Below are positions 4,019-22,489 of a DNA stretch of 43,642 nucleotides, in pieces (the stretch's first letter is position 1; each line of letters begins with the position of its first letter). Below the pieces are notes generated by a model, which worked only from the letters and a program-made list of their open reading frames with translations, searched no databases and was not told the origin of the DNA. The stretch lies in contig PHDM01000030.1 of assembly GCA_002840985.1 (NCBI GenBank), positions 1 through 43,642 of the forward strand. Reading direction: 5' to 3'. The position numbers and the translations under genes were made by a program. This DNA is from Bacteroidetes bacterium HGW-Bacteroidetes-17 (lineage in GTDB: Bacteria; Bacteroidota; Bacteroidia; Bacteroidales; GCA-2711565).

Positions 4019-4052
4019 AAAAAAAGCTGCCCTGATTTAGGCAGCTTTTTTG
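4019..4052 (+). terminator. Rho-independent terminator after the thiolase gene
   Basis: AGCTGCC-N8-GGCAGCT hairpin followed by TTTTTTT. Confidence 0.85.
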
Positions 4053-4106
4053 TTATACCAATTGTTAATTAAAATACGCCTTATGTACATTTTGATATTA
4101 CAATGG

Positions 4107-4184
4107 TTAATGCCGACGCTAGTTCAAAGTGGCTTTAAGAATAAAATGAATTAAAGGCGCATTTTGAACTGCATTCGGTATTAG
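4107..4184. repeat. Long imperfect intergenic inverted repeat (core), possible MITE remnant
   Basis: Left arm TTAATGCCGACGCTAGTTCAAAGTGGCTTTAA (4107-4138) against right arm TTAAAGGCGCATTTTGAACTGCATTCGGTATTAG (4151-4184); weaker symmetry extends outward. Confidence 0.5.
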
Positions 4185-4357
4185 TGGTACATTTTTTTTA
4201 TCATTAATGCGTAAACTCATTTTTATTAATCACAATTACAGCAATTGTTTAAACTGTTCTATTCTATAATTTTATTGTACCGAAATGAAACAACTTACAA
4301 TTGTAATACAGCCTTCATATATGTATAATAGGCAGATAAACAGACATATAAATCGAA

Positions 4358-4373
4358 TGGCACATGGTTTGCA
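4358..4373 (+). promoter_or_regulatory. Sigma-54 promoter upstream of the FtsX-type permease
   Basis: TGGCACATGGTTTGCA fits TGGCAC-N5-TTGCA with GG-N10-GC; about 43 nt before the ATG at 4417. Confidence 0.75.
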
Positions 4374-4416
4374 AAATGCTTAAATTACAAATTAGAAATC
4401 TTGAAAGAATATAGGA

Positions 4417-6819
4417 ATGTTTAAAAATTATTTAACCTCAGCTTTGCGAAATTTAATTAGAAATAAATCTTTTTCTATCATTAATATTTTAGGACTTACA
4501 ATCGGAATCACTACATGCATCATGATTTTTTTGTTTGTTTTTGATGAACTGCGGTATGGACAAGAACATCCTGAAAAAGAAAATATATACAGAATTTTAC
4601 GCGGAAGAGATGATTGGTCAGTTATCACACCAATGAAATTACTGCCTGTACTTATTGAAAATATCCCAGCTATTGAATCTACAGCGAGGTTAAAGAAAAT
4701 GAGCAGCGTTGTAACCTTTGAGAATGATTTTTATAATGAAAACGAAGTTTTATATGCTGATACCAACTTCCTGGAATTTTTCGATTGTGATTTATTAATT
4801 GGCGATAGAAAAACCGCTTTAAACAAACCTAATTCAATTATCCTTACAGAAGAAATGGTTCGCAAGTATTTTGGCAATCAAGATCCCATGGGAATGGTTC
4901 TAAAAATTGATAATGAAGTTCCGGTAATTGTAAGTGGGGTTTTGAAGGAAAGTCCAAAATTCAGGCCATTTGCGTTAGATTTTTTAATTAATATTGAAGT
5001 ACTTAGATATAACAATTCTGGCGCTTTTACCAATTGGGATAATAATTCTTTTCAATCATACGTGCGATTGAATGAAAAGGCTAATGCTGAGGTCGTGGCA
5101 GAATCGATTCCTGAATTTGTGGCAAAAGCACGTGGTTGGGATAAAATAGGATATGCAAGATATCGTCTGCAACCTTACACAAATATTCATTTGCATTCAA
5201 AAAATTTGGGTTGGGATAATTTTAGCAGAGGGGATGCGACTAACGTTTTTAGTTTTTTAGGCGTCGCCATTTTAGTTTTGGTATTGGCTTGTTTTAACTA
5301 TACAAACTTGTCGACTGCCCAAGCTGCAAGAAGGGCAAAAGAAATTGGTCTCCGTAAAACCGTTGGAGCTTCAAAGTGGCAATTGATCATTCAGTTCTTA
5401 TTTGAAGTTTTTATTTTAGTCTGTAGCTCGGTCATCTTTTCTTTAATCCTTGTTGAGATGTTAATGCCATGGTTTAATCAGTTAACAAATAAAACTTTAT
5501 CGCTTTACGCATTAAATCCAGTAGTTATAATACTTTCAATTATGCTTTTCATCAGTTTTGTTTCACTGATGGCAGGTTTTTATCCGGCTTTTGTATTGTC
5601 AGGTTACCAACCCATCAAAGTATTAAAAGGTAGTGGCTCAGCAGGACTCGAAGTTATGAAAGGTGGAGGTATTGCTATTCGTTTCCGACAAATAATGATT
5701 GTGTTTCAGCTTGCAAGTTCTGTAGCCTTAATTATAATAGCTGTCCTCATAAAAAATCAAATTGATTTTGCAGGGAATAAGGATTTAGGTATGCAGCCAA
5801 ACCAGCTACTTGTATTAAATAATATTCGGGCAGATGGAATGCAACAGCGTTATGATAATTTAAAAGCTGATTTGAGTCAATATCCTGAAATTATTAAAAT
5901 TAGTGGAGCATTCAATGTGCCTGGAGAGGATCTTAATAATTGGTGTACACTGCGATTACGAGCTGCTGATAATAAAAGTAATATTAGTAGTGCATATATG
6001 TTTATTGATGAAGGTTATTTTGATTTAATCGGTGCAAAGATCCTAAAAGGGAGGACATTCATGAGCAATAGTGCTTATGAAGATGTCAACTCGTGTATTA
6101 TCAATGAAACTACTGCCAGAATGTTGAATATTTATGATGATCCCATTGGACAGCAAGTATTTGGATTTTTTGATGATACAGTTCGAACGGTAGTTGGAAT
6201 GGTGAATGACATCCATTACAAATCACTACATGAAGGGGTTCCACCCGTGGTTTATAGGTCGGGCGATGAATATCCGCCTTATTTTTACCGGTTAGTAATG
6301 AGAATTGACAGTAAAAATATATCTAAAACCATTAGTCTAATTGAGGATGTTTGGGAAAAACATGAACCTAATTGGCCTGCTCAAATACGACTTATTGATA
6401 AGGAATTTGAAAATATGTATTTAACAGAAAAAAAAGTCTCGAAACTGATCAGTCTCTTTACATTGCTGGCTATTTCCATATCCTTACTTGGCTTATTTGG
6501 CTTAATCGCTTTTGTTGCCATATCGCGGAGAAAAGAAATAGGTATCCGTAAAACGCTTGGAGCTTCAATGTTAAACATTGTGATGACAATTGGTAAAGAA
6601 TTTATTTTTTTAACTATGGTTGCCAATTTAGTAGCTTGGCCGATTATTTATTTCATCTCTATCAGATGGTTGGACAATTTTACCGAAAGTGTATCTATAA
6701 ACTTCTTGTGGTATCCTTTGTCAGGTCTTATTGTGTTATGGATTGTTCTAATTATTGTAGTCTATCATTCAATTCATACAGCAAATCAGAATCCGGTTAT
6801 AGCCTTAAAGTATGAGTAA
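4417..6819 (+). CDS. ABC transporter permease, FtsX/MacB-like, two FtsX domains
   Basis: N-terminal TM segment, MacB-like core regions, EIGLRKTVGAS and EIGIRKTLGAS FtsX motifs, C-terminal NPVIALKYE. Confidence 0.93.
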   Translation: MFKNYLTSALRNLIRNKSFSIINILGLTIGITTCIMIFLFVFDELRYGQEHPEKENIYRILRGRDDWSVITPMKLLPVLIENIPAIESTARLKKMSSVVTFENDFYNENEVLYADTNFLEFFDCDLLIGDRKTALNKPNSIILTEEMVRKYFGNQDPMGMVLKIDNEVPVIVSGVLKESPKFRPFALDFLINIEVLRYNNSGAFTNWDNNSFQSYVRLNEKANAEVVAESIPEFVAKARGWDKIGYARYRLQPYTNIHLHSKNLGWDNFSRGDATNVFSFLGVAILVLVLACFNYTNLSTAQAARRAKEIGLRKTVGASKWQLIIQFLFEVFILVCSSVIFSLILVEMLMPWFNQLTNKTLSLYALNPVVIILSIMLFISFVSLMAGFYPAFVLSGYQPIKVLKGSGSAGLEVMKGGGIAIRFRQIMIVFQLASSVALIIIAVLIKNQIDFAGNKDLGMQPNQLLVLNNIRADGMQQRYDNLKADLSQYPEIIKISGAFNVPGEDLNNWCTLRLRAADNKSNISSAYMFIDEGYFDLIGAKILKGRTFMSNSAYEDVNSCIINETTARMLNIYDDPIGQQVFGFFDDTVRTVVGMVNDIHYKSLHEGVPPVVYRSGDEYPPYFYRLVMRIDSKNISKTISLIEDVWEKHEPNWPAQIRLIDKEFENMYLTEKKVSKLISLFTLLAISISLLGLFGLIAFVAISRRKEIGIRKTLGASMLNIVMTIGKEFIFLTMVANLVAWPIIYFISIRWLDNFTESVSINFLWYPLSGLIVLWIVLIIVVYHSIHTANQNPVIALKYE

Positions 6820-6845
6820 TAATTGCTCATAATTCAAAGAAAAGA

Positions 6846-6882
6846 AAAACGCAGCTTTCCGATACGAAAAGCTGCGTTTTTT
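6846..6882. terminator. Bidirectional terminator between convergent permease and S9 peptidase genes
   Basis: AAACGCAGCTTTccgatacgAAAAGCTGCGTTTTTT hairpin with A and T tracts on either side. Confidence 0.85.
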
Positions 6883-6900
6883 AATCTGAGAATTTAAATG

Positions 6901-9348
6901 TTATTTTTTATTCTTCACATATTTCATTAACCATTGATCGGATTCCCATAAAACATGCAAAATGGATTCGTAAGCTGCATATCCATGACTTTCGGCCGGT
7001 AACATCACCAAACGAACGGTTGCACCGTGGCCCTTCAATGCATTGTAATAACGCTCACTTTGTAAAGGGAACGTACCTGAATTATTATCAGCCAAACCAT
7101 GGGTCATTAATAGCGGTGTTTTCATTTTATCGGCATGCATAAATGGTGCCATTTGGTTATAAACATCGGGTGCTTCCCAGTATGTTCTTTCTTCCGATTG
7201 GAAGCCAAATGGGGTTAAAGTCCTGTTGTATGCTCCACTACGAGCAAGCCCGGCAGCAAACAAATTGGAATGGGTCAATAAATTGGCGGTCATAAATGCG
7301 CCATAACTGTGACCTCCAACTGCAACACGCTTTCGATCAACAATGCCCATTTCGTCAAGTGCATCAATGGCAGCTTTTGCATTTGCAACTAATTGAGGGA
7401 TAAATAAATCGTTTGGCTCAGTGTCACCTTCGCCGATAATTGGAAATTCTGCATTTTCGAGAATTGCGAAACCTCTTTTAACCCAAAAAATTGGCGATCC
7501 GTAACTGATTCGTGTAAAACGATGTGGAGAGGTACGAACCTGACCTGCCGTTTTTGGATCTTTGTATTCACGTGGATAGGCCCACATCAGCATTGGTAAT
7601 CGCCCATCTTTTGCTTTATCATATCCTGCCGGTAAATACATTGTAGCAGTTAAATCTACACCGTCATCACGTTTGTATTTGATGAATTCTTTGGTTACGC
7701 CTTCCAGTGCTTTATATGGATTTGGGAAAAAAGTTATTTGTTTGGGAGCCTCTTTTTTCTTGAAGTTGCGCAGGTAGTAATTTGCATTTTCGGATGCAGA
7801 TTCAATACTGGTAATCATTACTCCTTTCTTTAAATCAATAAAAAACAAATTGCCTCTGAAACCAATACTCTCATAAGTGCTGATTCCGTCGGCACGCCAA
7901 ATTTCTTTGGTGGTTTTTTTTGTCAAATCATATTGATTCAGGAAGGGTCGGTTTCCTTCCGGAGAATATCCTTCACCGCTTAAATAGAGATATCGGTCTT
8001 TTTCGACAAGCAATACATTTCTTCCGAATTGATTTTCAACTGTTACAAAGCTTCCGGGATCCTGATAAATATCTTCAGAATTAAGGTTAAATAATATTTC
8101 GGGTTTAATGTTATCAATAGAGGGATTGATTTTATATACCAGTGATTCACGAGTACTCCTCCAATTATCGTACGCAATGGCAATTTTATCATTTCCCCAG
8201 GTCATGCCTCTGAATCGGTTTTTAACCGAAACAATATGGGTTTTATTATTCAGATCGAAAGGATAATCGGTTGTATAAACCGCGTCACGAAATTCTGCTT
8301 CTGTTTTGGGGTTCCCTCCATCCAGTGCTTCAATCCAATAGATCGAGGCTGGCTTATCAGATCTCCAACTTACCCTTCGTGGACCTTTCTCCACTGCATC
8401 AAAACCACTTGGGACTTCTTCTAGGAGAGGAATTTCCTGTATTACCCTGATAAATTTACCATCTTTATCCAGCAAACTTAATACTGTAGGGAACTGGTTA
8501 AAAGGAACTAAATAAGAATAGGGTTTCTTGATGGTTTCTGTAATAATATATTCACTATTTGGAGAAACAGAAAATCCACTATAGATATTTGACTCGGTTA
8601 AATTTATTGAATTACCTTCCAAATCTACTCTTACCAATAAGGAACTTGCAAAATAATCAAAATTGGCTTCATCGGCTTTGTTTTTAAGCAAATCCTGATA
8701 GGTTCTTGAAGGAGCTGTTTTTCCTAAGTTTTCCTGAACAACCGGTCCGGTAGGGGTTTCATCAGCTTCTGTCAGACTTCCACGATCGGGATTGATAAAA
8801 CTGCAAATGAAAGACTGTCCGTCAGCTGCCCAATTATAGCTGCCACCAAATACACCATTTAACACTGCTTTGGTTAACTTTTTGGCTTCTTTTGATTGAA
8901 CATCAAAATACCACAATTCAATACCTTTATTTGTGGTATTTGTGAAAGCTACTTTTTGGTAATCAGGTGACCATGATACATCACTTATGTTAGCTTTTTC
9001 CGGCAAGCCTGTTACCTGAAATTCTTCACCACTTGCAACATTTTTGATGGTGATATTTGTGTTGAAATTTGTTCGGCTGCCACCATTGGTTTTAGGATTG
9101 ATACGCAAACCGGCAAGCTTATACTCTAAAGCCGATACTTCGTCTATCGATTTAAAGGGAACATTTTCGAGCAGGATCATCCATACACCATTGTTATCTA
9201 ATCGAACAGATGGGGTTAATGGGCTGTTTATTAACTCCAGTATTTCTTTTGGTGGAGTTTGATATTTAAGGTCAACTTGGGCAATGCTTTGAAAGCTAAT
9301 AAGCAAAAATAAACCCATTAATAATTTAAAAATAAATTGTTTTTTCAT
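6901..9348 (-). CDS. S9 family serine peptidase (prolyl oligopeptidase type), secreted
   Basis: Signal peptide MKKQFIFKLLMGLFLLISFQSIAQ; beta-propeller; GGHSYGAF nucleophile elbow; HGLADNN and ESHGY for Asp and His. Confidence 0.93.
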   Translation of the reverse strand: MKKQFIFKLLMGLFLLISFQSIAQVDLKYQTPPKEILELINSPLTPSVRLDNNGVWMILLENVPFKSIDEVSALEYKLAGLRINPKTNGGSRTNFNTNITIKNVASGEEFQVTGLPEKANISDVSWSPDYQKVAFTNTTNKGIELWYFDVQSKEAKKLTKAVLNGVFGGSYNWAADGQSFICSFINPDRGSLTEADETPTGPVVQENLGKTAPSRTYQDLLKNKADEANFDYFASSLLVRVDLEGNSINLTESNIYSGFSVSPNSEYIITETIKKPYSYLVPFNQFPTVLSLLDKDGKFIRVIQEIPLLEEVPSGFDAVEKGPRRVSWRSDKPASIYWIEALDGGNPKTEAEFRDAVYTTDYPFDLNNKTHIVSVKNRFRGMTWGNDKIAIAYDNWRSTRESLVYKINPSIDNIKPEILFNLNSEDIYQDPGSFVTVENQFGRNVLLVEKDRYLYLSGEGYSPEGNRPFLNQYDLTKKTTKEIWRADGISTYESIGFRGNLFFIDLKKGVMITSIESASENANYYLRNFKKKEAPKQITFFPNPYKALEGVTKEFIKYKRDDGVDLTATMYLPAGYDKAKDGRLPMLMWAYPREYKDPKTAGQVRTSPHRFTRISYGSPIFWVKRGFAILENAEFPIIGEGDTEPNDLFIPQLVANAKAAIDALDEMGIVDRKRVAVGGHSYGAFMTANLLTHSNLFAAGLARSGAYNRTLTPFGFQSEERTYWEAPDVYNQMAPFMHADKMKTPLLMTHGLADNNSGTFPLQSERYYNALKGHGATVRLVMLPAESHGYAAYESILHVLWESDQWLMKYVKNKK

Positions 9349-14524: not shown

Positions 14525-14532
14525 TACATTTG
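14525..14532 (+). promoter_or_regulatory. Candidate -7 element upstream of upp::permease fusion
   Basis: TACATTTG matches TAnnTTTG; clear -33 element not seen. Confidence 0.35.
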
Positions 14533-14545
14533 TGAATCACTAAAT

Positions 14546-16411
14546 TTGATGCATATGGTTTATATTCTGGGAAAACATAACAGTTTGTTAAATCAGTTTT
14601 TATCCGAGCTCAGAGATGAGCACATTCAATTGGATCGTTATCGTTTTCGAAAGAATCTGGAACGACTGGGTGAAATTTTTGCCTATGAAATCAGTAAAAA
14701 GCTGGAATATGAGCAGAAAGGTGTTACAACACCTTTAGGAGTAGCCAATGTATTTGTATTGTCCCAACATCCTGTTCTTTCTACAATTTTCAGAGCTGGT
14801 TTACCCTTGCATCAAGGGATGTTGAATTTCTTTGATCATGCTGATAATGCCTTTGTTTCTGCATATCGCAAGTATCATAAAAATCAAAAATTTGATATCC
14901 GGATCGAATATGCTTCAAGCCCCGATCTTGATGGTCGAATATTAATTCTTTCGGATGTGATGCTGGCAACAGGAGCATCGATCGTCTTGGCATACAGAGA
15001 ACTCCTTCATATGGGAAATCCAAAGCATACCCATATTGTAGCTGCCGTTGCAAGCGCAGAAGGGGTTGAATATATTAAGAAAAATTTACCATCGACCAAA
15101 GTTACCCTTTGGGTAGGTGCTGTTGATGATGAATTGACTGCCCAATCATACATTGTTCCCGGCTTGTTTATGACAAAATTTCTGATCATAGAAAATATTA
15201 AAATTTCACTTGAGTCTATTCGATCGCATATGTTGAGAAGCATTCTCACTGTTCTGATTATTGCATTTGGGATAATGGCCCTCGTTGGTATTCTAACTGC
15301 TATTGATTCAATTAAATACTCCTTAACCGATAGTTTCGCGATGATGGGTGCAAATACTTTTACAATTCGAAACAGGGAAATTATTATACGCATGGGAGGT
15401 GGAGGTAATGATGCAAAAAGATTCAGGTCAATTACGATAGATGAGGCAACTACTTTTAAAGAGGAATTTAAAATTCCTGCCTCTGTTTCGGTTTACACTT
15501 ATGGAACTAATTCTGCTACTTTAAAATTTGAATCCGAAAAAACAGATCCGAATGTTCCGGTAATTGGTTCTGATGAAGGTTATTTAATAACTTCGGGATT
15601 GGAGATTGAGAAAGGACGGAATTTTAATGTAAATGAAGTGCATTTCGGGAATAATGTAACTATTATAGGAAGCGAAGTTGCAAAACGATTGTTTAAATCA
15701 AATGTTGACCCTATCGACAAAATAATCTCAATTGGTCCTGGAAAGTATAAGGTAATTGGGGTGTTGAAAGAGAAAGGCTCAAGTATTGGGGCGAGTGATC
15801 GTTTGGCAGTCGTACCACTGACGAATGTTAGGCAGTATTTTTCCAGAGCAAACATGAATTATACAATCAATGTAATGACTTCCAGAGCGGAAGATACAGA
15901 GGCTGCAATAGGTGAAGCAACAGGATTGTTTCGTGTAATTCGCAAAGATAAACTTGGAGAAGTAGATACTTTTGGAATAGCCAAAAGTGACCTTATTGCT
16001 GATACCCTTATAAGTATGATGAGCTATGTTACCATGGCCGCAACATTTATTGGACTGATTACGTTGCTTGGAGCGGCCATAGGTTTAATGAACATCATGC
16101 TGGTGTCGGTGACCGAACGAACACGGGAGATTGGTATCAGAAAGGCCATGGGCGCGACAAGCATTACAATTAGGAATCAATTTTTTGTGGAAGCAATCGT
16201 AATTGGACAAATTGGTGGTCTTTTGGGAATTGTCCTAGGGATTTTGATAGGGAATATTCTTTCTTTATCCATCGGTAGTGCCTTTATCGTTCCTTGGTTA
16301 TGGATCTTATTGGGCGTTGTTTTGTGTTTTATCGTAGCCATTATTTCAGGAATTATTCCTGCAAATAAAGCAGCACGGCTTGATCCAATTGATGCTTTGC
16401 GATACGAATAG
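14546..16411 (+). CDS. Chimeric ORF: uracil phosphoribosyltransferase (to about 15166) fused in frame to MacB/FtsX-type ABC permease (from about 15170)
   Basis: N-terminal [45 protein letters not shown] and SYIVPGL are [53 protein letters not shown] to [12 protein letters not shown] and [12 protein letters not shown] is a MacB-like permease. Likely start ATG at 14549 or 14555. Confidence 0.9.
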
Positions 16412-20421: not shown

Positions 20422-20448
20422 TTATTAAGAGAAATAAAACATAAACAT

Positions 20449-21186
20449 ATGTATAGTAATTTTTATATTTTTCGATATGCAAGTGTGATGGTGATCATTG
20501 TGGCTGCCGTATTATCTTCGGCTGCAATGTTCCTAAAACCTTATCAGGAGCGAAATGAGGCAATTGAAAAGATGAAAGGAATTTTGGCCTCAGCCAAAAT
20601 TGATGCTACAACTGAAAACACGATTGAACTTTACGAAAAAAACGTGAATGAAGAAATCGTAATTAACAATGTTGGCGACATAGTATCAATATATAAAAAT
20701 GGCAATTTTGAATCCGGAGAAATCCGAGCCTTTAATCTAGACCTTAAAAAGGAATTGTACAAAAAAAGCAAAGGATTAGAATTCAATATCCCCTTGTTGG
20801 TTTCCGAATTAAATGGTGAAAAAATATATATTATTCCATTACGTGGTACCGGTCTTTGGGGCCCGATTTGGGGAAATATTGCTGTACAGGATAATTTCAG
20901 TACAGTCATTGGAGTAACCTTTGGACATAAGGGTGAAACTCCTGGATTGGGAGCTGAGATTGATACAAAGGATTTTCAATCACAATTTGTTGGAAAAGAA
21001 ATTTTTGAAGATGGTAAATTCCAATCAATAAGTGTGGTAAAAGGCGGCATTGTTAATTTACCCGAAAACATGAAAATTCACGGTGTAGATGCAATTTCAG
21101 GGGGTACAATTACAAGTAATGCGGTTACCGAAATGCTTGCAAATTGTTTAGAAAATTATGTTCCATTTATTACTAAAAATAACTAA
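20449..21186 (+). CDS. nqrC: Na(+)-translocating NADH-quinone reductase subunit C
   Basis: GHKGETPGLGAEI and DAISGGTITSNAV (SGxT flavinylation motif); position in operon. Confidence 0.95.
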   Translation: MYSNFYIFRYASVMVIIVAAVLSSAAMFLKPYQERNEAIEKMKGILASAKIDATTENTIELYEKNVNEEIVINNVGDIVSIYKNGNFESGEIRAFNLDLKKELYKKSKGLEFNIPLLVSELNGEKIYIIPLRGTGLWGPIWGNIAVQDNFSTVIGVTFGHKGETPGLGAEIDTKDFQSQFVGKEIFEDGKFQSISVVKGGIVNLPENMKIHGVDAISGGTITSNAVTEMLANCLENYVPFITKNN

Positions 21187-21189
21187 GCA

Positions 21190-21849
21190 ATGAATGTAGA
21201 GAAAAAAGAAAAAGAAGCTTTGTTTTCGATAAAAAATCGAAAACTCTTGATAAATCCCCTTCATAAGGACAATCCAATAACAATTCAGGTTTTGGGGGTT
21301 TGTTCTGCGTTAGCTGTTACTGCTAAAATGAAGCCTGCCTTTGTAATGACTTTATCTGTGATGGCAGTTGTAGCGGTTGCAAATGTGCTGATCTCAATTA
21401 TGAGAAATGGAATACCACCGCGAATCAGAATTATTGTTCAACTAGTGGTAATTGCAGCACTTGTAATTCTAGTTGATCAGGTTTTAAAAGCTTTTGTATT
21501 TGACATCAGTAAGCAACTGTCCGTTTTTGTCGGATTAATTATAACCAATTGTATCCTCATGGGTCGTTTAGAAGCTTTTGCAATGGCTAACAAGCCTTGG
21601 CCCGCATTCTTAGATGGGCTTGGAAATGGATTCGGCTATGGTTGGATTTTAATTGTGGTGTCTTTTTTCCGGGAACTTTTAGGCTCAGGGACCGTTTGGG
21701 ATTACCCGATCATGGAAAATCTGGGCGTTTATAATTTTGGGTATAAAAACAATGGATTAATGATACTGCCGCCAATGGCTTTAATTCTTATTGGGATCAT
21801 TATCTGGGTTCAGAAGTCAAAAGACAAATCATTAATTGAAGAAAAATAG
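21190..21849 (+). CDS. nqrD: Na(+)-translocating NADH-quinone reductase subunit D
   Basis: QVLGVCSALAVTAKMKPAFVMTLSV, FVGLIITNCILMGRLEAFAM, FRELLGSGT. Confidence 0.95.
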   Translation: MNVEKKEKEALFSIKNRKLLINPLHKDNPITIQVLGVCSALAVTAKMKPAFVMTLSVMAVVAVANVLISIMRNGIPPRIRIIVQLVVIAALVILVDQVLKAFVFDISKQLSVFVGLIITNCILMGRLEAFAMANKPWPAFLDGLGNGFGYGWILIVVSFFRELLGSGTVWDYPIMENLGVYNFGYKNNGLMILPPMALILIGIIIWVQKSKDKSLIEEK

Positions 21850-21865
21850 TAAATAAAATAACAAA

Positions 21866-22489
21866 TTGGTTATGCAAGAATTATTTAACATATTCGTAAA
21901 GTCCATCTTTATTGATAACATGATATTTGCCTATTTTCTGGGCATGTGTTCATACCTCGCAGTATCGAAAACAGTAAAGACTTCAATGGGACTTGGGCTG
22001 GCAGTTATCTTCGTACTTGTAATTACCGTTCCCGTCGATTATTTAATGCAAAAATACCTTCTCTCGGCAGGAGCACTAAGTTGGTTAAGTCCGGAATTTG
22101 CCGATGTGGATCTAAGTTTCTTAAGTTTCATCATGTTTATCGCTGTAATTGCATCCATGGTTCAGTTGGTTGAGATGATCGTTGAAAAATTTACACCTGC
22201 ATTATATAATTCATTGGGTATTTTCCTTCCATTAATAGCCGTAAACTGCGCAATTTTGGGAGGTTCATTATTTATGCAGGAGCGTGAATACGAAACAATC
22301 TGGCAAGCTACTTCTTTTGGTTTAGGTTCAGGCGTTGGATGGTTGTTGGCAATTGTTGGGATAGCAGCCATTCGTGAGAAAATCCGTTATTCAAATGTTC
22401 CGGCTCCTTTACGTGGACTGGGTATCACCTTCATTATTACCGGATTAATGGGAATTGCATTTATGAGTTTCTTAGGAATAAAATTATAG
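21866..22489 (+). CDS. nqrE: Na(+)-translocating NADH-quinone reductase subunit E
   Basis: [47 protein letters not shown]. Confidence 0.95.

Follow-up and report, generated by a model that had tools for sequence, protein, structure and literature searches.

The question raised by this locus is whether one open reading frame that joins a uracil phosphoribosyltransferase (UPRT, gene upp) to an ABC transporter permease encodes a functional fused protein, or whether it reflects a mutation or an error of assembly. The frame lies in a stretch of 43,642 nt (the window; contig PHDM01000030.1, assembly GCA_002840985.1) from Bacteroidetes bacterium HGW-Bacteroidetes-17, a member of Bacteroidales. This genome (G000) is a draft metagenome bin, which consists of 182 contigs and is 87% complete. 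As a preliminary description of this DNA correctly stated, a single unbroken frame of 621 codons, counted from TTG 14546, occupies 14546-16411 of the forward strand, and the UPRT part ends with SYIVPGL and is followed by a MacB/FtsX-type permease. In the alignment with same-genus genomes, ATG 14555 (ATGGTTTAT...) is conserved and is the likely start, giving a product of 618 aa. The Pfam domains of the 621-codon frame are UPRTase (13-207), MacB_PCD (232-459), and FtsX (501-614). Because both halves strongly match their families, a chance ORF is ruled out. The features of the locus are as follows.

14525..14532, forward strand: TACATTTG, possible Bacteroidota-type -7 promoter element just upstream of upp, conserved in the alignment
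14555..15166, forward strand: truncated uracil phosphoribosyltransferase of 204 codons, ending with SYIVPGL (Pfam PF14681 and NF001097)
15047..15222, forward strand: 176 bp that match G001 exactly except for the deletion; no identical run in the 12.7 kb compared is longer
15166..15167, forward strand: deletion junction, where 53 bp of G001 are absent (alignment with five same-genus genomes)
15170..16411, forward strand: full-length MacB/FtsX-type ABC transporter permease, with its own ATG and stop (PF12704 and PF02687)

The window was compared with five genomes of the same genus (G001, G002, G003, G004, and G005), of which G001 is the closest (89% DNA identity at the fused locus). The upp and permease genes are separate and adjacent in all five, as the preliminary description had suggested checking. 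The DNA alignment with G001 showed that exactly 53 bp are missing between 15166 and 15167, where the window reads GGC TTG/TTT ATG. In G001, the stretch between CCCGGCTTG and TTTATGACAAAATTTCTG is longer by these 53 bp, which comprise the upp codons GDAGDLAYGKKNNSDK, the TAA stop, and two spacer bases. Without them, the permease falls in the upp frame. A tail hidden in another frame, or a simple frameshift, was rejected by the alignment with relatives since the bases themselves are gone, which bears out the earlier reading that no other frame holds the tail. The clean deletion proposed at that time was right for the 3' end of upp and the spacer, but not for the start signals of the permease, whose own ATG is kept at 15170-15172; only the spacer bases upstream of it are gone.

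We also considered how the deletion might have arisen. Recombination between direct repeats was rejected: with a G001-like ancestral sequence, the two breakpoints have no base in common. An inverted repeat of 5 bp (CCGGC/GCCGG) lies across the left breakpoint but leaves the right one unexplained. In addition, the junction lies inside 15047-15222, which equals G001 letter for letter apart from the deletion, against a background divergence of about 12%; the next longest identical run in the 12.7-kb alignment is 89 bp. This identity fits either a recent gene-conversion tract that carried or preceded the deletion, or two strains mixed during assembly.

The UPRT half is a strong family member (PF14681, 98 bits, E = 5.7e-28; NF001097, 167.5 bits against a cut-off of 114). 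The UPRTase match covers profile positions 5-196 of 206, and the final 10 positions are missing. Up to SYIVPGL, the window copy is the same as the stand-alone UPRTs of the Bacteroidota branch, with the PRPP-binding loop and the position next to a permease. However, it lacks its own stop and the GDAGDLAYGKK... tail. All 28 related UPRTs that were compared end with GDAGDL(A/S)(Y/F)GxK, and thus a GDAGD-type uracil-binding C-terminus is what was deleted here. Among the near-invariant columns of these 28 relatives, 51 of 51 before the junction are kept, and the eight of the tail are lost. The half is 97% identical to the G001 protein, with a dN/dS of 0.083. By these measures, no decay was found beyond the lost tail. 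No relaxed selection was seen on this half, although only a few of the substitutions could be polarised. The PRPP loop (14954-14983) has a variant form in this genus, DVMLATGAS or similar (AVMLATG in G004), while most relatives have DPMLATG.

What the lost tail would mean for the enzyme can be judged from known structures, a comparison that the preliminary description had also proposed. In PDB comparison, the window UPRT ends (L204) at position 232 in a chain of 243 residues. With the first Met taken to be absent from that chain, we infer that this position is residue 233, and the fit of the GD(A/F) motif supports this numbering. The UPRT of Toxoplasma gondii contacts 5-fluorouracil through Y227, I229, G234, D235, and F236 (PMC10970046). 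Thus, G234-D235-F236 would be the three residues immediately after the junction, which are deleted here. Furthermore, UPRTs of higher eukaryotes without two conserved glycines of the uracil site show no activity in vitro (PMC4536494). Because the deleted residues match uracil contacts of the Toxoplasma enzyme and glycine-lacking UPRTs are inactive, the UPRT half has likely lost uracil binding.

Meanwhile, the permease half matches PF12704 (116 bits) and PF02687 (76 bits), both above cut-off and with MacB_PCD followed by FtsX. It shares 94-95% protein identity with the stand-alone permease of G001, and its dN/dS is 0.061. Like that MacB/FtsX-type ABC permease (G001, C93 12412-13656), the window copy is complete from ATG to stop. 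However, the G001 protein has a free N-terminus, whereas in the window 204 UPRT codons and one spacer codon run in frame into the permease. No partner ABC ATPase was found among the ten neighbouring proteins scanned. The fused locus is surrounded by a DUF7033 protein, a protein without family assignment, a T9SS plug protein, and the Nqr operon.

Two other parts of the window also differ from G001. First, 4052-6901 contains a duplicated MacB/FtsX permease of 800 aa (4417-6819). This copy was apparently gained in the lineage of the window or lost in G001, because the G001 blocks that flank the region lie only 19 bp apart. Second, about 30-70 of every 200 bases differ from G001 at 20433-22033 in the nqr region, compared with about 10-20 of 200 in the flanking genes. 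This excess divergence suggests that the stretch was replaced by recombination.

In most relatives that have the pair, both genes lie on one strand, with 0-34 bp between the upp stop and the permease start. Therefore, the two genes were very likely co-transcribed before the deletion, as judged from their arrangement. The preliminary description had considered that the permease captured the upp promoter. This idea is unsupported, and no such capture is needed because the gene pair is already operon-like. The Bacteroidota -7 promoter consensus is TAnnTTTG, and TACATTTG at 14525-14532 resembles it. We take this element, by its likeness to the consensus, to be a putative promoter; the alignment has TACATTTG in G001-G004 and TAGATTTG in G005. 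The adjacency of upp and permease is also seen in many genera of the order (for example, L011, L016-L018, L021, L024, L045-L047, and L054), and this conserved neighbourhood hints at a link between both genes.

To see whether the fusion occurs elsewhere, we surveyed the order (395 genomes) and the phylum (399 genomes), about 790 in all, with one genome per species. No fusion was found in another genome, and a full-length match (1-621) without a stop was present only in G000. Thus, the architecture was not seen in more than one species, and these surveys again gave separate upp and permease genes in relatives. Long permease matches in G213, G112, G351, G232, G307, G151, G289, and G369 were read singly; in each the two genes are separate, and upp has its stop and an intact tail. 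Among the papers searched, none mentions UPRT, gene fusion, and an ABC transporter permease together. The earlier remark that no such fusion had been described agrees with these surveys, the reason being a singleton mutation and not an overlooked functional architecture.

A different frame was found in G023 (locus L075, contig C33, 1122-2606, 495 codons). It encodes a UPRT with a complete tail; a partly duplicated copy of the tail comes next, and a glycosyl hydrolase family 25 (GH25) domain follows behind a probable membrane segment. Like the frame in the window, it has upp fused in frame at the 3' end to an unrelated protein. However, it differs in having retained and partly duplicated the UPRT tail and in having GH25 as the partner. 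L075 is another, independent fusion derived from upp in this order, also at the 3' end of upp.

A second intact upp had been named as something to look for in the genome. Searches with a protein query and the PF14681 profile found no second UPRT in this 87% complete draft, and a second upp may lie in the missing part; the other PF14681 matches are weak and below cut-off. The genome does contain uridine kinase (udk), type 2 OMP decarboxylase (pyrF), and a uracil permease above its cut-off. The strain could live without UPRT. With the uracil-contacting residues lost and no second upp found, the loss of uracil salvage foreseen in the preliminary description is supported as a likely outcome.

The comparison of the assembled sequences establishes that DNA present in G001 is deleted here, exactly how much is missing, that no relative examined has this deletion, that the permease is intact, and that the invariant tail is lost. 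The best explanation, which we consider probable, is a recent strain-specific deletion of 53 bp that inactivated UPRT and left the permease intact. The deletion would have taken the end of the upp coding sequence together with its stop codon and two bases of the spacer, and the downstream permease would by chance have been left in the upp frame. The UPRT half would then no longer bind uracil, and uracil salvage by the UPRT route would be lost in the strain. The permease would still be made, either as the C-terminal part of the fusion or by initiation at the ATG it has kept, and presumably works like an ordinary stand-alone permease. Pyrimidine supply would then depend on de novo synthesis and nucleoside salvage.

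The main rival is an assembly or consensus error, which we regard as rather unlikely. By this account, the strain has separate genes, and 53 bp were lost in the assembly of the draft bin, perhaps through the mixing of two related strains. The fusion is indeed seen in a single draft assembly, and strain mixing could give a junction surrounded by 176 bp that match G001 exactly. Furthermore, purifying selection on the rest of the UPRT half is clear, and the retained uracil permease agrees better with a working UPRT, which speaks for an artefact. Because the UPRT half has no further sign of decay and the uracil permease is kept, the event is either very recent or not real. However, the breakpoints have no direct repeat, so a collapse of the short-read graph has no obvious cause. 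In addition, the assembly is otherwise clean at the locus, because no second indel longer than 3 bp was found in the approximately 21.8 kb (three blocks) that can be aligned with G001. A random error is also expected to give an in-frame outcome only one-third of the time.

If the deletion is real, selection for UPRT loss is a special case of it. Loss of UPRT is a standard bacterial route to 5-fluorouracil resistance. Resistance to a toxic uracil analogue might have been favoured, and the in-frame fusion would have kept the permease expressed, as a deletion that keeps the frame does not harm the gene behind it. However, there is no evidence of exposure to an analogue, and one case cannot separate selection from chance; we consider this improbable. 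A functional fusion is the least credible account: the open frame, the kept PRPP loop, and the permease N-terminus expected from its inferred topology to be cytosolic would allow the PRPP-binding UPRT half to regulate or tether the permease, as a metabolite-sensing MacB-type transporter, or to stay catalytic through other residues, but there is no other case in about 790 genomes, though the genes adjoin in many, the deletion removed near-invariant residues that match uracil contacts, no linker was gained, and the recent origin leaves no trace of selection for fusion. The bifunctional or UMP/PRPP-sensing permease of the preliminary description is thus unsupported, being known from one assembly, with its uracil site removed and without conservation. 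As biology, a chance loss of function by recent deletion is most likely.

These results carry a caution. One small deletion can fuse operon-like genes, and the resulting frame in a draft genome then mimics a new domain architecture. The conserved pairing of upp and permease across the order is a more durable observation than the fusion. If the deletion is real, it would be a natural loss of UPRT in an uncultivated lineage of Bacteroidales.
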